NCBI RefSeq assembly: GCF_013004645.1
Contig: NZ_JABEME010000001.1
Location: forward strand, 372,001-436,000
Reading direction: 5' to 3'
DNA: 64,000 nucleotides
Source of the DNA: Stenotrophomonas africana
GTDB lineage: Bacteria; Pseudomonadota; Gammaproteobacteria; Xanthomonadales; Xanthomonadaceae
Below, one piece after another: positions 11,647-21,010 of this stretch. The notes beneath the pieces are model-generated. The model was not told the origin of the DNA. It searched no databases and was given only the letters and a program-made list of their open reading frames with translations. The position numbers were made by a program, and so were the translations under genes. The first letter of the stretch is position 1. Every line of letters starts with the position of its first letter.

Positions 11647-12330
11647 ATGCGCGTTCTGATTGCTGAAGACGACCCGGATATCGCCTCCGGCCTGTGCGCC
11701 TCGCTGCGCCGGCAGGGCCATGTGGTCGACCACGTCGACAACGGCGCGCACGCCGACGCTGCCCTGGGCTCGACCCAGTACGCATTGCTGGTACTGGACC
11801 TGGGCCTGCCGCAGCTGGACGGCCGCGACGTGCTGCAGCGCCTGCGCCAGCGCGGCGATGGCCTGGCGGTGCTGGTGGTCACCGCCCGTGACGGCCTGGC
11901 CGAGCGCGTGCGTGTGCTCGACCTCGGCGCCGACGACTACCTGGTCAAGCCGTTCGCACTGGACGAATTCGAAGCACGTGTTCGCGCACAGCTGCGGCGG
12001 GTCACCAGCAACGGCAACCCGGATCTGCGCATCGGTCGCCTGCGCCTGGACCTGGCCGGGCATCGGGTGTGGATCGACGATCAGTCACTGGAACTGACCG
12101 CGCGGGAATTCGGCCTGCTGTCCGCGCTGGCGGTTCGCGCCGAGCGCATCGTGTCGCGCGCGCAACTGGTGGAAGCGCTGTGCGACTGGGGCCAGGACCT
12201 CACCGACAACGGCCTGGACATCGCCCTGCACCGCCTGCGCCGCAAGCTGCAACCCGGCGGCATGGGCATCCGCACCGTGCGCGGGCTGGGCTACATGCTG
12301 GAAGACGCGCAGGACGAAAACGCCTCGTGA
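11647..12330 (+). CDS. OmpR/TctD-family response regulator
   Basis: Cytosolic DNA-binding response regulator of 227 residues. The receiver domain has the acidic pocket AEDDPDI, phospho-acceptor Asp51 in VLDLGLPQLDG, TARD and Lys in YLVKPFALDE. The C-terminal winged helix contains LTAREFGLLSAL, DNGLDIALHRLRRKL and TVRGLGYML. It overlaps the downstream sensor kinase by four bases (GTGA), so the pair is translationally coupled. The kinase architecture places the system in the TctDE/QseBC-like group, often linked to carboxylate or metal responses. Target genes are not evident. Confidence 0.94.
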   Translation: MRVLIAEDDPDIASGLCASLRRQGHVVDHVDNGAHADAALGSTQYALLVLDLGLPQLDGRDVLQRLRQRGDGLAVLVVTARDGLAERVRVLDLGADDYLVKPFALDEFEARVRAQLRRVTSNGNPDLRIGRLRLDLAGHRVWIDDQSLELTAREFGLLSALAVRAERIVSRAQLVEALCDWGQDLTDNGLDIALHRLRRKLQPGGMGIRTVRGLGYMLEDAQDENAS

Positions 12331-13706
12331 TCAGTGGACCGCCCAGCCTGCGCCGGCGCCTGCTCGCCTTCCTGGCGCTGCCGATGCTGGGCCTGCTCAC
12401 CTTCAACACGATCCTGGCCTATTACGTTGCGCTGGACTATTCCAACCGCATCCACGACCGCAACCTGATCGACGACACGCATTCGTTCGCGCAGATGCTG
12501 AGCACCATGCCGGTGACCAGCGACCTGTCGCCGCAGGCACGCTTCCTGATCGAGTACGACCCCGACGGCCATCGCTACTTCAACGTCGACAGCAGCCGCA
12601 TGGGTACGCTCAGCGGCAATGCCGACTTCAGTCCGTACGCCCCTTCGCAGGACTGCACCGGTGTGCATCCGGCGCTGTACGACGGCAACCTCAATGGCCA
12701 GCAGGTGCGCATGGCCACGGTCTGCACGCAGGCGATGAACGATCCGCAGGACCAGCTGGCGGTGACCGTGGCCGAGAGCATGGCCGACCGCCGACAGCGC
12801 GCGCGCGAGATCCTGATGATCATCATCCCGCTGATGACCATGCTGGCGCTGGGTACCGCGGCGCTGGTCTGGTTCGGCGTGACCTACGGCCTGCGCATCC
12901 TGACCCCGCTGAGGACCCGCCTGGCGCAGCGCCGCGGCGAACTGGCACCGATCTCCGATGCCGACGTGCCGGAGGAGATCCAGCCCCTGATCAGCACCAT
13001 CGATGATCTGTTTGCCCGCCAGGCGGAAATGATCACGTTGCAGAACCGCTTCATCGCCGATGCCGCGCACCAGCTGCGTTCGCCGCTGGCGGGCATGGCC
13101 CTGCACGTGGACCAGGCACTGGCGCATGGTGACCCCGATACGGTGCGCGAGGCACTGCAGCACATCCGCCGGCTCAACCAGCGCACTGCCCGGGTCAGCA
13201 CCCAGCTGCTGGCGCTGAGCCGGGCGCAGACCGTGCCCGATACCGTGGAGGCGCTGGATCTATGCGAGCTGGTGCCGCAGTGGGTCGGCACGCGCGTTCC
13301 GGAGGCGATCCGTGATGGCATCGACCTCGGCTACCGCGGCAGCCCCCATCCGCTGCGTGTACTCGGCAACGGCGCCATGCTGCAGGAAGCGCTGGACAAT
13401 CTGATCGACAACGCCCTGCGTTATGCCGGCCGCAATGCGACCGTCACGGTGGGCGTGCACGCGCTGGACGACAATGATGTCGAACTGTATGTGGAAGACA
13501 ACGGCCCCGGCGTGCCCGACGACGTGATGCCACGGCTGGGCGAGCGCTTCTTCCGGGCACCGGGCACCGCTGCCAGCGGCACCGGCCTCGGCCTGGCCAT
13601 CGCGCACGAGGCGGTGGAGCACTTCGGCGGCCGCCTGAGCTTCCTGAACCGCCCCGGCGGCGGATTGAAGGTCGCCATCACGCTGCCGCTGCTGAAGGCG
13701 CCCTGA
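12327..13706 (+). CDS. TctE-like sensor histidine kinase
   Basis: Inner-membrane sensor of 459 residues starting at GTG, overlapping the regulator's stop. TM1 (about 10-35), a periplasmic region (about 38-160) of the short two-component-sensor type, and TM2 (about 163-187) precede the H-box DAAHQLRSPLAG with phospho-accepting His248. The ATPase domain is complete: N-box LIDNALRYA, G1 VEDNGPGVPDD, F-box RFFRAPG, G2 GTGLGLAIAHEA. The periplasmic part has two cysteines (DCTGVH and TVCTQA) that could form a disulfide. Ligand unknown. Confidence 0.94.
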   Translation: MISGPPSLRRRLLAFLALPMLGLLTFNTILAYYVALDYSNRIHDRNLIDDTHSFAQMLSTMPVTSDLSPQARFLIEYDPDGHRYFNVDSSRMGTLSGNADFSPYAPSQDCTGVHPALYDGNLNGQQVRMATVCTQAMNDPQDQLAVTVAESMADRRQRAREILMIIIPLMTMLALGTAALVWFGVTYGLRILTPLRTRLAQRRGELAPISDADVPEEIQPLISTIDDLFARQAEMITLQNRFIADAAHQLRSPLAGMALHVDQALAHGDPDTVREALQHIRRLNQRTARVSTQLLALSRAQTVPDTVEALDLCELVPQWVGTRVPEAIRDGIDLGYRGSPHPLRVLGNGAMLQEALDNLIDNALRYAGRNATVTVGVHALDDNDVELYVEDNGPGVPDDVMPRLGERFFRAPGTAASGTGLGLAIAHEAVEHFGGRLSFLNRPGGGLKVAITLPLLKAP

Positions 13707-13785
13707 CCCGGTCCGGGGCGCTGAAAGGCTGGCGAAAATCGCGCTTGCGATCCTGCCATCCCCACTGCCGTCACGGAGCCGCCAG

Positions 13786-14622
13786 GTGACCGAATCGCAC
13801 GACTTCTTCCTCCCCGGTGGCCCACAGGGCGTGCTGCTGGTCCATGGCCTGACCGGCACCCCCGCGGAAATGCGCATGCTGGGCAAGGGCCTGAACAACG
13901 CCGGTTTCACCGTGCACGGCGTGCAGCTGCCCGGGCATTGCGGCAGCGTGGATGATCTGCTGGCAACCACCTGGGAACAGTGGTACCTGGGCGTGGAAGA
14001 TGCGGCGGCAACCCTGCGCGGCAAGGTCGACCAGCTGTTCGTCGGTGGCCTGTCGATGGGCGCGGTGCTGTCGCTGGCCTTGGCTGCACGTCGCCCGGAG
14101 TGGGTCTCCGGGGTCGGCGTCTACGGCGCCACTTTCCGCTACGACGGCTGGAACATCCCCGCCGTGGCCCGGCTCTCGTTCCTGCTGCCGTGGTTCAAGC
14201 GCTTCAACATCGGCCGCGACCGCATGTTCATGGAAGAACCGCCCTACGGCCTGCGTGACGAGCGACTGCGTGCGCAGGTCAGTGCCGCCATGCTGTCCGG
14301 CGACAGCGCGGCGGCCGGCCTTCCGGGCAACCCCTGGCACGCGCTGGCCGAGATGCGCGCCCTGAGCAACTGGACCCGCCGCCACCTGCACCAGGTCACC
14401 GCGCCGTGCCTGGTGATGCACGCACGCGAAGACGACGTGGCCAGCATGGGCAATGCCGAACTGGTGATGTCGCGGGTCAGCGGCCCGAAGGAACTGGTGG
14501 TGCTGGAAGACAGCTACCACATGATCACCATCGACCGCGAACGCCGCGACGTGATCCGCCGCAGCGCGCGCTTCTTCACCGAGATCGGTGAACGCAGTGG
14601 CGTCCTCAAGGCGGTGGCCTGA
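13786..14622 (+). CDS. Alpha/beta-hydrolase (carboxylesterase/monoacylglycerol lipase-like)
   Basis: A 278-residue serine hydrolase, first gene of an eight-gene co-directional cluster. GVLLVHGLTGTP is the oxyanion region; nucleophile Ser90 lies in GGLSMGAVLS; the acid is in MHAREDDVAS and the histidine in EDSYHMITID. These match Est30-type carboxylesterases and MGL-like lipases. The GTG start follows ACGGAG. The next gene begins two bases after the stop. In this context it may hydrolyse or transfer an acyl group on the pathway product, but that is inference from neighbours only. Confidence 0.87.
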   Translation: MTESHDFFLPGGPQGVLLVHGLTGTPAEMRMLGKGLNNAGFTVHGVQLPGHCGSVDDLLATTWEQWYLGVEDAAATLRGKVDQLFVGGLSMGAVLSLALAARRPEWVSGVGVYGATFRYDGWNIPAVARLSFLLPWFKRFNIGRDRMFMEEPPYGLRDERLRAQVSAAMLSGDSAAAGLPGNPWHALAEMRALSNWTRRHLHQVTAPCLVMHAREDDVASMGNAELVMSRVSGPKELVVLEDSYHMITIDRERRDVIRRSARFFTEIGERSGVLKAVA

Positions 14623-14623
14623 A

Positions 14624-14983
14624 ATGGGGGCACTCGCCACGCTGCTGTGGCTGGCCAATGTGGTACTCGATACCGGTGGCCAGCTCGCCTTCAAGGCCGC
14701 CGCCAGCGATCCGCAGGAAGGCGAAGGACTGCAACGGTGGAAACACATGCTCAGCCGTCCCTGGCTGTGGATCGGCATCGCCTGCTATGTGCTTGAGTTC
14801 GTCGCCTGGATCGCGTTCCTGTCGCTGGTGCCGCTGTCCAAGGGCGTGCTGCTGGGCTCGATCAACATCGTCGCACTGATGATCGCTGGCCGCTTCCTGT
14901 TCCGGGAGAAGCTCACGCCGCTGCGGGTGACGGGCATGCTGCTGGTCACCGCAGGCGTGGCGGTGGTGGGAGCTGGCTCATGA
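14624..14983 (+). CDS. Four-TM SMR/DMT-type half transporter, subunit 1 (ArnE-like)
   Basis: A 119-residue membrane protein with four hydrophobic segments: LLWLANVVLDTGGQLAFKAA, LWIGIACYVLEFVAWIAFLS, GVLLGSINIVALMIAGRFLF and GMLLVTAGVAVVGAG. The pattern of LxxVPLSKGVLLGSIN followed by FxEKLTPLRVTGMLL is that of EmrE-like DMT proteins and of ArnE/ArnF flippase subunits. Its stop overlaps the start of a second protein of the same size and fold, which implies a heterodimer. Flipping of a lipid-linked amine is one possibility; simple amine export is another. Confidence 0.82.
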   Translation: MGALATLLWLANVVLDTGGQLAFKAAASDPQEGEGLQRWKHMLSRPWLWIGIACYVLEFVAWIAFLSLVPLSKGVLLGSINIVALMIAGRFLFREKLTPLRVTGMLLVTAGVAVVGAGS

Positions 14984-15378
14984 GGCGCCTGTATGTAATC
15001 GGCTTCCCGCTGCTGATGGCCTTCGACACGCTGGCCCAGCTGTGTTTCAAGTACGCCGGTGATGCCGCGCTGCCGGTCGAGGCCAACACCGCGTGGCTGC
15101 TGCGCGTGCTGTCGCAGCCGTGGGTGTACGGCGCCATCCTCGGCTACGTGGGTGCGTTCTTCACCTGGATGAGCCTGCTGCGGCATGCGCCGATCGGCCC
15201 CGCATTCGCCGCCTCGCACCTGGAAGTGATCAGCGTGCTGCTGCTGTCGGCGTGGCTGTTGAACGAGCCGCTGACCCTGCACCATCTGCTCGGTGCAGTA
15301 CTGATCGTGGCCGGCATCGTCTGCCTCGGCCGCGCGGAGGCCGACGACCCGCACAGCCCGGCCGAAAGCACGACGTGA
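14980..15378 (+). CDS. Four-TM SMR/DMT-type half transporter, subunit 2 (ArnF-like)
   Basis: A 132-residue membrane protein that starts in an ATGA overlap with subunit 1. Four hydrophobic segments are seen, including FPLLMAFDTLAQLCFKYAG and ILGYVGAFFTWMSLLRHAPIGPAFAASHLEVISVLLLSAWLLNEP in its DMT-type core, then LGAVLIVAGIVCLGR and a short polar tail. The two half transporters have unlike sequences but matching topology, as in ArnE/ArnF and paired SMR proteins. Likely substrate is the product of the surrounding enzymes, by context only. Confidence 0.82.
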   Translation: MRRLYVIGFPLLMAFDTLAQLCFKYAGDAALPVEANTAWLLRVLSQPWVYGAILGYVGAFFTWMSLLRHAPIGPAFAASHLEVISVLLLSAWLLNEPLTLHHLLGAVLIVAGIVCLGRAEADDPHSPAESTT

Positions 15379-15388
15379 GCGCACCACG

Positions 15389-16597
15389 ATGAGCCTGTTC
15401 GCGCGCGAGCTCCCACCGACGGCGGGCCTGCCGATGCAGGCCAGCGATTTCCTTCCCGGTGGCGGCAACCTGCGCGACATCCTGGCCAGCCAGCTCGGCA
15501 CACCCCCTCTGCAGCTGACCTGCTCCGGTACCCACGCACTGCTGATCGCGCTGCGTACGCTGCGCAAGCGTGCACCAAAGCGCGACACCGTAATCATGCC
15601 GGCCTATACGTGCCCGCTGGTGCCGATCGCGGTGCACAGCCTGGGTCTGCGGGTGCAGCTGTGCGATACCCGGCGCGACCATTTCGACTTCGACCCCGGC
15701 CAGCTCAGGCGTCTGGCCGATGCGCGCACGCTGGCGATCCTGCCCACCCACCTGGGCGGTCGCATCGCCGACGTCGAGCTGGCCTGCGAGGTCGCACGCG
15801 GCGCCGGTGCCTGGGTGATCGAAGATGCCGCACAGGCACTCGGTGCACGGGTTGGCAACACCAGTGTCGGCCTGCGCGGCGACATCGGTTTCTTCAGCCT
15901 GGCCGCCGGCAAGGGACTGAGCCTTCACGAAGGCGGCCTGCTGGTCAGCCGCGACGACGAACTGCGCGCCGCGCTGGCCGAACATGCCGCCGAACAGGTG
16001 CATTTCAGCCTGCGCTGGGAGCTGCTTCGCAGTGTGCAGCTGCTCGGGCTCGCAGCCTGCTATCGACCCTCGCTGCTGTCGCTGGTGTACGGAAATCCAC
16101 TGCGCAGTGCACTGCAACGCGGCGATCTGGAAGAAGCGGTCGGTGACATTTTCCCGCTGGACATCCCGCAGCACCGGGTCAGCCAGTGGCGGCAGAACAT
16201 CGGCGCACATGCCGCGCGGCGGCTGCCCGCCTTTTTGCAGGCCGGACGCCTGCGTGCATTGCAGCTGCGGGTGCAGCTGGCACAACTGCCGGCGGTGGAC
16301 GTGGTCGACGGGCTGGCCGGTACCGGCGGCACCTGGCCGATGCTGATGCTGCTGCTGCCCAGCCAGCGCGCGCGCGATGCTGCGCTGAAGAACCTGTGGC
16401 CACGCGGTCTCGGCGCCAGCCGCATGTTCATCCATGCCCTGCCCGACTACGCCTATCTGCGAGGCATCGTGCCGCAGGCCGACGTGCCCAACGCGCGCGA
16501 CTTCGCCGCACGCATGCTGACCCTTGGCAACAGCGCCTGGCAGACCCGTGAAGAGACCGCAGAAATTCTGCAGGCATTGGCTGACGCGCAGCTCTGA
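15389..16597 (+). CDS. DegT/DnrJ/EryC1/StrS-family PLP-dependent enzyme
   Basis: A 402-residue fold-type I PLP protein of the sugar aminotransferase superfamily. CSGTHALLIAL is the cofactor phosphate/substrate loop, PAYTCPLVPIAV the next family motif, IEDAAQALGA carries the PLP-ring Asp146, and GFFSLAAGKGLSLHEGGLL holds the likely Schiff-base Lys175. The lysine context departs from the usual SxxxxKxxxxGEGG, so the substrate may be unusual. It starts about ten bases after the half transporters and probably belongs to the same transcript. Usual family chemistry is transamination of keto-sugars, but sequence alone does not show that a sugar is the substrate. Confidence 0.85.
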   Translation: MSLFARELPPTAGLPMQASDFLPGGGNLRDILASQLGTPPLQLTCSGTHALLIALRTLRKRAPKRDTVIMPAYTCPLVPIAVHSLGLRVQLCDTRRDHFDFDPGQLRRLADARTLAILPTHLGGRIADVELACEVARGAGAWVIEDAAQALGARVGNTSVGLRGDIGFFSLAAGKGLSLHEGGLLVSRDDELRAALAEHAAEQVHFSLRWELLRSVQLLGLAACYRPSLLSLVYGNPLRSALQRGDLEEAVGDIFPLDIPQHRVSQWRQNIGAHAARRLPAFLQAGRLRALQLRVQLAQLPAVDVVDGLAGTGGTWPMLMLLLPSQRARDAALKNLWPRGLGASRMFIHALPDYAYLRGIVPQADVPNARDFAARMLTLGNSAWQTREETAEILQALADAQL

Positions 16598-16764
16598 AAG
16601 CGGGTATTCCCGGGCAATCGGCCCATTCACAAAGATCATTCCTGAACGCTTTCCCCGCCCGGAAATGAAGGCTTTCAACAGGAAAGGAACGAGAAAGGCT
16701 GCCTGCCTACATTGAGCCTGCCCCGGCATCGCGCCGGACGTTTCTTTCATCGACGGACCTGCCC

Positions 16765-17478
16765 ATGCGCTGGAGCATCCTGTGTGACTTCGACGGCACC
16801 ATCAGCCTCGAAGATGTCATCGACTCGCTGCTGGAGAAGTACGGCCAGCCGGGCTGGCAGGAACTGGAAGAGCAGTGGAAGTCGGGAAAGATCGGCTCGC
16901 GTGAATGCATGCAGGGCCAGGTCAGGCTGCTGAAGCTGGACCCGGCCACGCTCGACGCCCACCTGGACCAGGTACAGATCGATCCGGGCTTCGCCGACTT
17001 TGTCAGCCGCGCCGAACAACTGGGCGTGCCGCTGCGCATCGTCAGTGATGGCCTGGACTATGCGATCCACCGCATCCTCGCCAACCACGGCCTGTCGCGA
17101 CTGCCGGTGGTGGCCAACCACCTGCGCTGGTGCGGGGACCACTGGGAACTGGAATCGCCCTACCAGGCCGAAGGTTGCCGCAGTGGCACCTGCAAGTGCA
17201 CCTGCGCTGCGCAGGCGCGCGCCAACGAAGCACCGCGCGTGCTGATGATCGGCGATGGCAGCTCGGACTTCTGCGTCTCTGAAGACGCCGACTTCGTGTT
17301 CGCCAAGCGCCGCCTGATCACCCATTGCACGAAGGCCGGCATCGAACACGCCGCCATCGACACCTTCCACGATGCAGTCGCGCTGCTGCCGCGCCTGCTC
17401 GATGGCAGCCTGCTGCAGCCACGTCGCATCGACGCCAGCCCGCAGCCCATCGTACTGCCCCTGCTGGCCACCGCCTGA
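16765..17478 (+). CDS. HAD-IB phosphatase (MtnX/SerB-like)
   Basis: A 237-residue cytosolic phosphatase. Motif I is CDFDGTIS with nucleophile Asp8 and acid Asp10; motif II is IVSDGLDYAI; motifs III/IV are represented by MIGDGSSDFCVSEDADFVFAK. This arrangement matches MtnX-like HAD-IB enzymes, which act on small phosphorylated metabolites. A cysteine-rich stretch CRSGTCKCTC (about 152-161) could bind metal. A 167-bp gap separates it from the DegT gene, so an internal promoter is possible. No methionine-salvage genes are nearby, so the MtnX function itself is unlikely and a role in the local pathway is favoured. Confidence 0.86.
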   Translation: MRWSILCDFDGTISLEDVIDSLLEKYGQPGWQELEEQWKSGKIGSRECMQGQVRLLKLDPATLDAHLDQVQIDPGFADFVSRAEQLGVPLRIVSDGLDYAIHRILANHGLSRLPVVANHLRWCGDHWELESPYQAEGCRSGTCKCTCAAQARANEAPRVLMIGDGSSDFCVSEDADFVFAKRRLITHCTKAGIEHAAIDTFHDAVALLPRLLDGSLLQPRRIDASPQPIVLPLLATA

Positions 17479-17542
17479 GCACTCCCTTCCAGACCCGCTC
17501 CCCGTTGCCCCCTTTCGAACGTCCTTCACGGAACCGAACTGC

Positions 17543-18943
17543 ATGAACATTTTTGACAAGAACGCCGACGCCGCTGCCTCCGATGCGCAGCTGCTGGCCG
17601 ACGAAGCCCGCTACAGCTCCTTCGGCGATACCGTCCACTACGTCGACCCGCCGAAGATCTTCCAGCGCGGCGAAGGCAGCTACATGTTCGACGGTGCGGG
17701 CGTGCCCTACCTCGATCTGCAGATGTGGTACTCGGCCTGCAACTTCGGTTACAGCAACAAGCGCCTGAACGACGCGCTGAAGGACCAGATCGACACCCTG
17801 CCGCAGGTCGCCAGCCAGTACCTGCACCCGACCCGCGTGCAGCTGGCCAAGACCATTGCCGTGGACATGCACGAGAAGTTCGGCCTCGACGGCCGCGTGC
17901 ATTTCAACGTCGGCGGCGCGCAGGCCATTGAAGACTCGCTGAAAATCGTGCGCAACGCGCGTGGCGGCAAGAGCCTGATGTTCGCCTTCGAGGGCGGCTA
18001 CCACGGCCGCACCCTGGGCGCGTCGTCGATCACCTCCAGCTACCGCTACCGTCGCCGCTACGGCCACTTCGGCGAGCGCGCGATGTTCATCCCGTTCCCG
18101 TACCCGTTCCGCCGCCCGAAGGGCATGACCCCGGATGAGTACTCCGACCACTGCGTGTGGCAGTTCGAGCGCCTGTTCGAAAGCGAGTACAACGGCGTGT
18201 GGGATCCCAAGGTCGGCCAGGCCGAATACGCCGCGTTCTACGTCGAGCCGATCCAGGGCACCGGCGGCTACGTCATTCCGCCGCGCAACTTCTTCACCGG
18301 CCTCAAGCGCGTGCTGGACAAGTACGGCATCCTGATGGTGGTCGATGAAATCCAGATGGGCTTCTGGCGCACCGGCAAGCTGTGGTCGATCGAGCACTTC
18401 GGCGTGACCCCGGACGTGCTGGTGTTCGGCAAGGCGCTGACCAACGGCCTGAACCCGCTGTCGGGCCTGTGGGCGCGCGAAGAGCTGATCAACCCGACCG
18501 TGTTCCCGCCGGGCTCCACCCACTCCACCTTCAACTCCAACCCGCTGGGCACCCGCCTGGGCCTGGAAGTGCTGAAGCTGGGCAAGGAAATGGATTACGA
18601 GCGCACCGTGCCGGAAAAGGGCGCGTACTTCCTCGACGGCCTGCGTGGCCTGCAGAAGCGCCACCCGGAAATCGGCGACGTCGACGGCCTGGGCCTGGCC
18701 CTGCGCGCCGAGATCTGCCAGACCGACGGCTACACCCCGAACAAGGAACTGCTGGATCGCATGGTCGACATCGGCCTGGCCGGTGACCTGCTGCATGACG
18801 GCAAGCGCATGGGCCTCGTGCTCGACGTGGGTGGCTGGTACAAGAACGTGATCACCTTCGCGCCGTCGCTGGACATCAGCTACGAAGAGATCGACCTGGC
18901 GATCACTCTGCTCGATCAGGCGCTGACCAAGGCCAAGGGCTGA
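17543..18943 (+). CDS. Class-III PLP-dependent aminotransferase
   Basis: A 466-residue enzyme related to ornithine/diaminobutyrate/4-aminobutyrate aminotransferases. FNVGGAQAIEDSLKI is the phosphate loop, FEGGYHGRT the next motif, MVVDEIQMGFWRTG contains the PLP-binding Asp269, and VFGKALTNGLNPLSG the Schiff-base Lys297. It usually transfers an omega-amino group between an amine and a keto acid. The start ATG is the one followed by NIFDKNADA. It is followed after 22 bp by a FemAB/GNAT-like gene and then an arginase-fold gene, so a pathway handling a diamine, omega-amino acid or guanidino compound is suggested. Substrate unproven. Confidence 0.92.
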   Translation: MNIFDKNADAAASDAQLLADEARYSSFGDTVHYVDPPKIFQRGEGSYMFDGAGVPYLDLQMWYSACNFGYSNKRLNDALKDQIDTLPQVASQYLHPTRVQLAKTIAVDMHEKFGLDGRVHFNVGGAQAIEDSLKIVRNARGGKSLMFAFEGGYHGRTLGASSITSSYRYRRRYGHFGERAMFIPFPYPFRRPKGMTPDEYSDHCVWQFERLFESEYNGVWDPKVGQAEYAAFYVEPIQGTGGYVIPPRNFFTGLKRVLDKYGILMVVDEIQMGFWRTGKLWSIEHFGVTPDVLVFGKALTNGLNPLSGLWAREELINPTVFPPGSTHSTFNSNPLGTRLGLEVLKLGKEMDYERTVPEKGAYFLDGLRGLQKRHPEIGDVDGLGLALRAEICQTDGYTPNKELLDRMVDIGLAGDLLHDGKRMGLVLDVGGWYKNVITFAPSLDISYEEIDLAITLLDQALTKAKG

Positions 18944-18965
18944 CGTCGATGCGCTGCCGGTTCCC

Positions 18966-20036
18966 GTGCCGATGGAGATGACGTCACGCGCATCCAGCAC
19001 CGCGCTGGAACCGGCTGCGCTGCTGGAGGGCTTCCTGGCCCACCCGCCGCTCGGATTCGAGGCAGGCCGCCTTCCCAGCGGCCTGCCGACCTTCCGTGCG
19101 CCGCTGGACCTGACCACCACGATGGACGACGAACTGCGCGGCAGGCTGCTCGGCCTGCCGCTGTCGCGCCTGTGGCGGCCATGGATCACCTGGAAGACCC
19201 GCTTCGTCGGTGCCACCAGCACCGAGTACACCCCGTTGCCGGCGCACGTAGCGCCGGAGGCGCTGGCCGAGGACGTGGCGCGTCACGCGATCGGTGATAC
19301 GCGCCTGCTGGTGGTCAAGGACCTGGCCATCGATTCACCGCTGCTGGACGATGCCGCCAACGCACACAGCGGCGCCTTCCTGCAGGCATTGCTGGCGCGC
19401 GGCTTCGTCGAACTGGAAGGCATGCCGCTGGCCTGGGTGGCGATCGATTTCGATTCGCTCGATGGCTATCTCGGCCGCCTGTCGTCCTCGCGCCGCAAGA
19501 ACATCCGGCGCAAGCTCCGTTCGTGTGATGACCTGCAGATCGACTGCATCGCCACCGGTGATCCGGCCCTCGCCGACCCGCAGCTGCAGGCCGAACTGTA
19601 CGCACTGTACCTGGGCGTGTATGCGCAGAGCGCGGTGCATTTCGACCAGCTCGACCTGCCCTATTTCCAGTACCTGCTGGCCGACGGCCAGGGCCAGGGA
19701 CGGATGTTCCTATACCGCCACCAGCGCCAGCTGATCGGCTGGAACCTGTGCTACGTGCATGCCGGCAAGCTGGTGGACAAGTACATTGGCCTGGCTTATC
19801 CGCAGTCGCGCGAGCACAACCTGTACGCGGTCAGCTGGATGCACAACCTCGAGTACGCGCTGCAGCACGGCCTGAGCCACTACGTGGCCGGCTGGACCGA
19901 TTCGCGGATCAAGGCCGAGCTGGGCGCCCGCTTCACCTCCACCCGGCACGCGATCCACGCCCGCTCCCCGCTGTTGCGCGCTGCCCTGCGCAAGCTGGCG
20001 CCGCATCTGCAGGGCGAACCGGATGGAGGCGGTTGA
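18966..20036 (+). CDS. FemAB/GNAT-fold N-acyltransferase (Acetyltransf_6-like)
   Basis: A protein of about 356 residues (GTG 18966; ATG 18972 and 18978 are alternatives). The central part (FDSLDGYLGRLSSSRRKNIRRKLR) and the block LIGWNLCYVHAGKLVDKYIGLAYPQSREHNLYAV match the BioF2-like/Acetyltransf_6 and peptidogalycan-biosynthesis group, which are FemAB-type GNAT enzymes that form amide bonds on amino groups. No membrane segments are seen. It ends three bases before the arginase-like start codon, so the genes are tightly coupled. It may acylate or aminoacylate the amine made by the upstream aminotransferase, which is inference. Confidence 0.78.
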   Translation: MPMEMTSRASSTALEPAALLEGFLAHPPLGFEAGRLPSGLPTFRAPLDLTTTMDDELRGRLLGLPLSRLWRPWITWKTRFVGATSTEYTPLPAHVAPEALAEDVARHAIGDTRLLVVKDLAIDSPLLDDAANAHSGAFLQALLARGFVELEGMPLAWVAIDFDSLDGYLGRLSSSRRKNIRRKLRSCDDLQIDCIATGDPALADPQLQAELYALYLGVYAQSAVHFDQLDLPYFQYLLADGQGQGRMFLYRHQRQLIGWNLCYVHAGKLVDKYIGLAYPQSREHNLYAVSWMHNLEYALQHGLSHYVAGWTDSRIKAELGARFTSTRHAIHARSPLLRAALRKLAPHLQGEPDGGG

Positions 20037-20039
20037 ACG

Positions 20040-20924
20040 ATGCCGTTGCGTTCCCCGCTGATTCTGGACCTGGACGGTGGCGTGCTGCCGCTGCCACAGG
20101 CGCAGACGCTGGCCCTGCCGCAATGGCATGACCCGCTGCGCTTCGCCTGCAGCAATGCCACCCTCGACCGTTTCGCCGCGGAAGTGCTGGCGCCGCTGCC
20201 GGCCCAGCTCGGCACGGTCATGCTCGGCAGCGGCGACTTCCACCACCTCAGCCTGCCGCTGCTGCAGCGCATGCGCCCGCAGCAGCCCTTCCAGCTGGTG
20301 GTGCTGGACAACCATCCGGACAACATGCGTTTCCCGTTCGGCATGCACTGCGGTTCGTGGGTGAATGCCGCCAGCAAGCTGCCGCAGATCTCGCACATCC
20401 ACGTGCTGGGCATCACCTCGAGTGACATCGGCCTTGGCCACGCCTGGGAAAACCATTGGCGCCCGCTGATAGGCGGGCGCCTGACCTACTGGTGCATGGA
20501 TGTGGACGTGGGCTGGGGCCACCGCCTCGGCATGGGCCGTGCATTCCGACGCTTCGAGCATCCGGAGGGACTGGTCGCCGCGTTCGCCGCCGAGCAGGCC
20601 AAATCGCCGCAACCGGCCTACCTGTCGATCGACAAGGATGTGTTCGCCGAGGACGTCGCCCGCAGCAACTGGGACCAGGGCCGCTTGCAGCTGGAACACG
20701 CACTGGTGGTGATCGAAGCACTGCGCGCCGGTGGCCTGGTCGGCAGTGACATCACCGGCGAAGTGTCGCTGGCCAACTACCAGAGCCGCTTCAAGCGCTG
20801 GCTGTCGTCGCTGGATGGTCAGCCTGACATCAGCGCCGAGGATCTGCCAGTCTGGCAGGCGCGGCACCAGCAGGTGAACCGCGAACTGCTGGCCGCGATG
20901 GCCGCCGTGCCGACGGCCTGCTGA
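20040..20924 (+). CDS. Arginase/agmatinase-fold metalloenzyme, divergent
   Basis: A 294-residue protein with the ureohydrolase metal motifs in order but in divergent form: GSGDFHH (63-69, for GGDHS), DNHPDN (90-95, for DAHxD) and SIDKDVF (196-202, for SxDxDxxDP). The six expected Mn ligands (His, Asp90, His92, Asp94, Asp198, Asp200) can all be placed. The final Pro of the last motif is missing and overall similarity to true arginases is low, so it may hydrolyse a different guanidino- or amide-like substrate. It is the last gene of the cluster and is followed by a SMAG repeat. Confidence 0.82.
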   Translation: MPLRSPLILDLDGGVLPLPQAQTLALPQWHDPLRFACSNATLDRFAAEVLAPLPAQLGTVMLGSGDFHHLSLPLLQRMRPQQPFQLVVLDNHPDNMRFPFGMHCGSWVNAASKLPQISHIHVLGITSSDIGLGHAWENHWRPLIGGRLTYWCMDVDVGWGHRLGMGRAFRRFEHPEGLVAAFAAEQAKSPQPAYLSIDKDVFAEDVARSNWDQGRLQLEHALVVIEALRAGGLVGSDITGEVSLANYQSRFKRWLSSLDGQPDISAEDLPVWQARHQQVNRELLAAMAAVPTAC

Positions 20925-20932
20925 CCGCGTCG

Positions 20933-21010
20933 GTAGTGCCGGCCGCTGGCCGGCAATGCCAACCAAGGTTGGCATCTACCAGACCAATGCCGGCCAGCGG
21001 CCGGCACTAC
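20933..21010. repeat. SMAG-type REP array (three palindromes)
   Basis: A GTAG-headed unit (TGCCGGCCGCTGGCCGGCA), a central palindrome TGCCAACCAAGGTTGGCA followed by CTAC, and an inverted copy of the first unit ending in CTAC are packed into 78 bp. It separates the arginase-like gene from the VOC gene. Confidence 0.87.

Follow-up and report, generated by a model that had tools for sequence, protein, structure and literature searches.

The locus considered here raises the question of what eight co-directional genes for a hydrolase, two half-transporters, two pyridoxal phosphate (PLP) enzymes, a phosphatase, a FemAB-like transferase and an arginase-like protein could be making together. It lies in a stretch of 64,000 nucleotides of Stenotrophomonas africana DNA, which we refer to as the window (assembly GCF_013004645.1, contig NZ_JABEME010000001.1, positions 372,001-436,000, forward strand). 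On balance, and with modest confidence, we favour the view that these genes belong to a conserved envelope pathway under PmrA-like control, in which a small lipid carrying an amine would be synthesized and decorated before it is flipped and exported. Our computational analyses show a conserved gene set, a direct repeat that is shared with an unlinked exporter, predicted folds and a clear pattern of residue conservation. An earlier sequence-only reading had proposed a single operon for the synthesis of an amine or guanidino compound and its export or flipping, possibly on a lipid. Of this interpretation, the idea of one pathway with a lipid or flipping flavour was supported, whereas the single operon, a plain N-acyltransferase and the boundaries of the locus had to be revised. 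The features concerned are the following, numbered by their positions in the window.

11647..12330, + strand: OmpR-family response regulator, nearest to PmrA/BasR (Pfam Response_reg and Trans_reg_C)
12327..13706, + strand: sensor histidine kinase with a 2CSK_N input domain (Pfam 2CSK_N, HisKA and HATPase_c)
13723..13738, + strand: direct repeat GAAAG-N6-GAAAA, preceding the hydrolase unit
13786..14622, + strand: alpha/beta hydrolase with the nucleophile motif GLSMG (Pfam Hydrolase_4, 1e-21)
14624..14983, + strand: EamA/SMR half-transporter 1 (EamA-1), ArnE-like (Pfam EamA, 1.4e-7)
14980..15378, + strand: EamA/SMR half-transporter 2 (EamA-2), ArnF-like (Pfam EamA, 1.7e-10)
15389..16597, + strand: DegT/DnrJ/EryC1/StrS-type PLP enzyme (DegT, 3.9e-39, the best match covering the N-terminal half)
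16682..16697, + strand: direct repeat GAAAG-N6-GAAAG, preceding the phosphatase-aminotransferase unit
16765..17478, + strand: HAD-IB phosphatase, MtnX-like (NCBIfam TIGR01489)
17543..18943, + strand: class-III PLP aminotransferase (Aminotran_3, 5.2e-71; ATG start at 17543)
18966..20036, + strand: FemAB-like tandem-GNAT transferase of 356 residues (Pfam FemAB_like; start uncertain)
20040..20924, + strand: divergent ureohydrolase-fold metalloenzyme (arginase-like)

All eight open reading frames were found where they had been placed, with the ATGA overlap at 14980 between EamA-1 and EamA-2 and the 3-bp gap before 20040, and every one of the eight proteins has a Pfam match above the curated cut-off for the family assigned to it. 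Some early reference sequences in our searches began upstream of the likely starts (17537 for the aminotransferase, 14588 for EamA-1), which added residues to them, and one early alignment that contained two rows from the wrong strand (L009 and L011) was set aside. A single operon was rejected in view of a conserved regulatory repeat in the 167-bp gap between the DegT and phosphatase genes and of the arrangement in other genera, where the halves hydrolase-EamA-EamA-DegT and phosphatase-aminotransferase-FemAB-arginase-like are often differently oriented. For these reasons the locus probably consists of two transcription units that correspond to the two halves. A second genome of the same genus shows conservation of the 167-bp gap itself. 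The boundaries of the locus were extended as well: the upstream PmrA-like two-component system also belongs to it, as does an exporter located elsewhere in the genome, which we include because of the regulon and phyletic evidence described below.

The first argument for a pathway comes from the recurrence of the gene set. At E 1e-3, at least 580 sites in the collection of species-level genomes encode a relative of the aminotransferase. The best 80 were kept, and the 58 of these that have full flanks are the basis of our locus counts; the set is biased because it was ranked by match to an alphaproteobacterial first sequence. Profile searches found the phosphatase in 57 of these 58 loci, the hydrolase in 52, the FemAB-like gene in 44, EamA genes in 43 and the arginase-like gene in 42, with the DegT gene limited to 10 loci, 9 of which are gamma- or betaproteobacterial. 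The phosphatase gene lies immediately upstream of the aminotransferase gene in 56 loci, the reading frames overlapping in 25. FemAB-like and arginase-like genes also travel together, as 42 loci have both, 2 the FemAB-like gene alone, none the arginase-like gene alone, and 14 neither. With the arginase-like protein as the query against 299 genomes of the phylum, relatives were detected in 11, the own genome included, and the other ten stretches all contain further members of the set; two of them stop at contig edges (L023 and L026), and in two others (L020 and L022) the aminotransferase and phosphatase are not within the fetched stretch. In L020 and L022 the FemAB-like, arginase-like and EamA genes are clustered nonetheless, and therefore this module can sit apart. 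Altogether, Xanthomonadales, Pseudomonas and many Rhizobiales have related clusters, as do a Rhodocyclaceae and a Pigmentiphaga record; the refutation named beforehand, absence of the set outside this species, thus did not occur. The aminotransferase is also present on 34 plasmid records from Rhizobium, Agrobacterium, Bartonella, Xanthomonas, Sinorhizobium and Phyllobacterium, four of which were opened. Because the gene set is conserved, chance assembly is excluded, and co-occurrence together with the shared repeat supports the original proposal of one pathway.

Two arrangements within these clusters deserve mention. In three Pseudomonas loci (L083, L085 and L093) the cluster includes a MipA/OmpV-like gene and follows genes for a glutamate-type ABC transporter and for a DctBD-like two-component system (the latter two named by eye). 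In a Rhizobiales metagenome contig (L047:9344-11338) the phosphatase and aminotransferase form one open reading frame of 664 amino acids, which is either a natural fusion or a frameshift.

The second argument is regulatory. The response regulator has PmrA as its best NCBIfam match, at 222.6 bits and thus below the cut-off of 330, and PmrA/BasR as its best PDB matches. Regulator and kinase are 55-71% and 44-48% identical, respectively, to those in aminotransferase loci of three Dyella, one Pseudoxanthomonas and one Lysobacter record. Both units in the window are preceded by the pattern GAAAG-N6-GAAA[A/G] (at 13723 and 16682), and the site at 16682 is the only exact copy of GAAAG-N6-GAAAG in the window, where 0.02 are expected. 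Of 42 distinct gamma/beta regions preceding the phosphatase (a grouping set by hand), 32 contain the exact repeat, whereas with any other spacing from 0 to 20 it occurs in at most 2 of the 42, the shuffled expectation being near 0. Across 25 gamma/beta loci (510 kb), GAAAG-N6-GAAA[A/G] has 20 sites, namely 15 just upstream of the phosphatase, 4 upstream of the hydrolase (L017, L063, L094 and L102) and 1 elsewhere. Loci with an NtrC-type regulator use another control signal, a sigma-54-like site (TGGCA[CT]-N5-[TC]TGC): 14 of 19 such full-flank loci have it upstream of the phosphatase, as opposed to 2 of 38 without this regulator, and it is present in 0 of the 11 loci carrying the GAAAG repeat. 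Within the own genome, a further exact copy (L156:6727-6742) lies about 115 bp upstream of genes for a MacA-like membrane-fusion protein and an ABC ATPase, divergent from a glmS-like gene (by eye); this pair is possibly a further member of the regulon, or the repeat copy there is due to chance. The fourth own-genome copy is near a GH31-like gene, also named by eye.

The repeat connects the locus to the unlinked exporter. About 250 kb from the window, the own genome contains a TolC-permease-ATPase-membrane-fusion set with an exact copy of the repeat upstream of its TolC gene, and the pumps encoded next to the hydrolase in sister loci are of the same family as this exporter. GAAAG-N6-GAAAG was found upstream of the exporter in 13 of 14 further stretches fetched from the genus, with differing spacers. 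The only stretch that lacks it comes from G540, the sole genome in which the permease is present while the aminotransferase was not detected; this genome is 85% complete, its permease is more diverged, and the repeat was looked for in one 301-bp stretch. Among 81 genomes of the genus, 29 have both the aminotransferase and the exporter permease, 3 the aminotransferase only, 1 the permease only and 48 neither. The closest known exporter is DevBCA-TolC, which exports a glycolipid; here, too, the permease is part of a set with TolC, an ATPase and a membrane-fusion protein, both in sister loci and at the unlinked site of the own genome. The permease of the sister locus L018, which is 54% identical to that of the own genome, has DevC as its only NCBIfam match (E 1e-10), although at 77.2 bits it falls below the cut-off of 290.35.

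The genes that accompany sister clusters are the main reason why we call the product a lipid. Among the 58 full-flank loci, a ketoacyl synthase (KAS) was found in 10, an acyl carrier protein (ACP) in 9, a fatty-acid desaturase in 14 and a cyclopropane synthase in 15; genes of a TolC-linked ABC pump are represented by a permease in 15, a membrane-fusion protein in 14 and TolC in 12. A Xanthomonas sacchari plasmid has KAS, ACP and pump genes alongside both units, and on a Xanthobacter contig TolC, permease, ATPase, membrane-fusion protein, ACP, KAS, HAD phosphatase, aminotransferase, arginase-like and hydrolase genes follow in a row on one strand. These partners, with the DevC-type exporter, agree with the lipid or flipping flavour that had been proposed.

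With respect to the chemistry, the aminotransferase is the most conserved member of the set: its identity is still 73-75% in the three farthest stretches (L024-L026), compared to 28-35% for the arginase-like protein. It matches PF00202 with 239.9 bits (cut-off 30.5) and has the catalytic Lys in 91 of 91 aligned sequences. All 91 also have Thr at a column where 3 of the 4 displayed PDB relatives covering it have Arg. In amino-acid-type class-III aminotransferases this Arg binds the alpha-carboxylate. Judged from these residues, the enzyme appears to act on a substrate other than an amino acid. Within the genus, 27 of the 32 positive genomes, the own genome included, have an aminotransferase with 99-100% identity, and the arginase-like protein is 93% identical in one of them (L017); the near-identity of the aminotransferase reflects either unusually strong constraint or recent transfer. 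The phosphatase exceeds the TIGR01489 cut-off (101.6 bits over 81.55) and misses the MtnX equivalogs (106.9 bits where 292 is required, and 94 where 303.2 is required); its nearest PDB entry is 2fea, MtnX (1.7e-20). A comparable logic of amination followed by dephosphorylation is described in PMC3222319 for RtxA, which leads from dihydroxyacetone phosphate (DHAP) via serinol phosphate to serinol. Here, two separate proteins encoded by adjacent genes would do this work, and the likeness is one of reaction logic rather than of compared sequences.

The FemAB-like protein had been regarded as a plain N-acyltransferase, a view that was revised. The protein matches PF04339 (41.3 bits, cut-off 27), and a PDB search found no sequence relatives at E up to 1. 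In a structure model built from a 33-row alignment (the window protein and 32 of 48 references), the fold resembles those of the tRNA-dependent aminoacyl transferases FemX and MprF, with MprF high in the ranking; the nearest folds are the aminoacyl-tRNA-dependent enzymes Sba18 and Sbb17, two of the three entries having been solved with streptothrisamine. Based on this model, the protein probably adds an amino acid from an aminoacyl-tRNA. It aligns over residues 4-347 with the soluble part of MprF only; it differs from MprF in that its 356 residues do not include a fused N-terminal membrane flippase half, in that its Pfam family is FemAB_like and not MprF, and in that the acceptor lipid would come from the cluster itself. 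We regard it as rather unlikely that the protein uses acyl-ACP or acyl-CoA without a tRNA and yields a ceramide-like N-acyl amino-alcohol, a possibility with which several facts agree: KAS and ACP genes adjoin the FemAB-like gene in several gammaproteobacterial loci, the substrate of the class-III enzyme is apparently not an amino acid, and N-myristoyltransferases (NMT) share the FemAB-like fold. The order of the nearest folds nevertheless speaks for the tRNA-dependent enzymes.

As had been noted before, the motifs of the arginase-like protein are atypical. A structure model from a 30-row alignment (the window protein and 29 of 38 references) shows a ureohydrolase (PF00491) fold in which the binuclear metal ligands are kept, and the nearest fold is proclavaminate amidino hydrolase, with rows within 1 Z counted as tied. 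Gly240 occupies the position aligned with the canonical Glu in 59 of 59 sequences and is followed by an acidic residue at 241 in all 59, and the His loop is gapped; it should be noted that the underlying alignment is weak (hhalign to an arginase-family protein of the own genome, probability 2%). The canonical Glu and the His loop are residues that ureohydrolases use on guanidines. The protein retains the metal residues but apparently not the other catalytic residues of ureohydrolases, including proclavaminate amidino hydrolase. Since the protein seemingly does not have these residues, the guanidino substrate or product of the sequence-only reading is no more than a possibility, even though its remark on the motifs was right. 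A PDB sequence search gave one match (E 0.86), and a PF00491 search of the own genome returned the canonical gene only and not the arginase-like gene of the window. Chains of the histone-deacetylase type are not among the 50 structure rows listed for the model and are not thereby excluded.

Both models bear on whether the product is a lipid at all. A secreted non-lipid small molecule, such as an aminoacylated amino-polyol antibiotic, toxin or signal that leaves through the EamA pair and the tripartite pump, would fit the streptothrisamine-bound neighbours of the FemAB-like fold and the nearest fold of the arginase-like protein, proclavaminate amidino hydrolase being an enzyme of an antibiotic pathway. 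It would also fit the patchy distribution of the aminotransferase (32 of 81 genomes of the genus) and its plasmid records. However, the desaturase, cyclopropane synthase, KAS and ACP genes of sister loci, the ArnE/F-like half-transporters and the rank of MprF all point away from it, and we give it a minor share of our confidence.

The half-transporters lead to a comparison with the PmrAB-controlled Arn pathway, which modifies lipid A with L-Ara4N. A PmrA-nearest regulator, a PLP enzyme of the ArnB superfamily and paired ArnE/ArnF-like EamA proteins are common to both. The best NCBIfam matches are ArnE for EamA-1 (32.8 bits, equivalog cut-off 92) and ArnF for EamA-2 (31.8 bits, cut-off 99), and ArnB is among the matches of the DegT protein (62.9 bits, cut-off 631). 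In the DegT enzyme the catalytic Lys is kept in 18 of 18 cluster members, which corrects the impression that its lysine context is atypical. A variant Arn system, with DegT as ArnB and the EamA pair as ArnE/ArnF under PmrA, would account for these matches and for the nearest relative of the regulator, but is highly improbable: all scores, that of PmrA included, are far below the equivalogs, DegT is found in so few full-flank loci, and no sugar-nucleotide or glycosyltransferase family was found among the ten locus proteins scanned. We therefore rejected membership in the Arn system. ArnA, ArnC, ArnD and ArnT are likewise not among these ten proteins, to which the search for them was confined. 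No counterparts in the Arn pathway are known for the class-III aminotransferase, the phosphatase and the FemAB-like and arginase-like genes. Because the defining scores and domains that we tested were missed, the pathway is neither MprF nor Arn, although it would work like MprF and like the PmrA-Arn response. The earlier remark that no named pathway was recognized in this combination still stands, insofar as we recognized no published description by title or beginning of abstract in a literature coverage without most subscription journals; the papers found there on serinolipids and serinol phosphate do not deal with this cluster.

Returning to the amine-bearing lipid, we propose the following order of events. 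The class-III enzyme would aminate a carbonyl compound without an ordinary alpha-carboxylate, and the MtnX-like phosphatase would take off a phosphate before or after amination; our leading guess is the conversion of DHAP to serinol phosphate and serinol. An acyl chain would then be attached or trimmed, possibly by the alpha/beta hydrolase, and in other lineages with a dedicated ACP and KAS, a desaturase or a cyclopropane synthase. The FemX/MprF-like protein would add an amino acid, with aminoacyl-tRNA as the probable donor, and the adduct would be trimmed by the ureohydrolase-fold enzyme. Finally, the EamA pair would flip the product and the DevC-type TolC-linked pump would export it. A more specific version, which we consider decidedly unlikely, has a cationic ornithyl lipid as the product: the FemX/MprF-like transferase would use Arg-tRNA to attach Arg to an amino-alcohol lipid at its amine, the ureohydrolase-fold enzyme would cut the guanidino group, and flipping by the EamA pair and export by the co-regulated DevC-type pump would follow under PmrA-like control. 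Ornithine has no tRNA of its own.

A number of observations weigh against the proposed lipid pathway, in which the substrates, the sequence of reactions and the product are all inferred. The window locus has no KAS and ACP genes, and the best own-genome matches (42% and 35% identity) are neighbours at another site and perhaps represent the housekeeping pair. Within 10 kb, the pump and the FemAB-like gene tend toward mutual exclusion (both in 7 of the 58 loci, pump only in 8, FemAB-like only in 37, neither in 6), and some loci, such as L079, show only the HAD and aminotransferase genes nearby. Pumps of the DevC/TolC type also export non-lipids, and three genomes of the genus have the aminotransferase without the exporter permease, while the Fisher tests and co-occurrence statistics ignore phylogeny. 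The FemX/MprF fold is also found in users of acyl-CoA, with lower Z values (14.8 for mycothiol synthase and about 13 for NMT). The repeat is missing from 10 of the 42 gamma/beta upstream regions, not a single copy is present in 9 of the 25 gamma/beta loci, and the own genome has 4 exact copies of GAAAG-N6-GAAAG compared to 4 for a reversed control.

Some further features of the region were recorded. Rfam gave 0 matches at the gathering threshold for known structured RNAs between 13000 and 21500 of the window, and anti-phage defence was dismissed, since PADLOC had no match for any of the eight proteins at E 1e-5. A sigma-70 scan gave 0 sites and a terminator scan 4, with 2.9 expected, and neither result was used. 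Just 3' of the arginase-like gene (20936-21010) there is an inverted pair of GCCGGC-rich palindromic repeats, identified by eye, which resemble the short dispersed repeats of this group and which may end the transcript.

The near-clean presence or absence within one genus and the predicted regulon of three operons make the pathway directly testable. If the product were indeed an ornithyl lipid, the system would represent an MprF in separate parts, widespread among proteobacteria and equipped with an acceptor lipid made for the purpose. If, more generally, an envelope aminolipid is made, then the lipid inventories of Xanthomonas-, Rhizobium- and Pseudomonas-type bacteria would be missing a regulated class of compounds, one that may shape surface charge, tolerance to cationic peptides and contact with the host.

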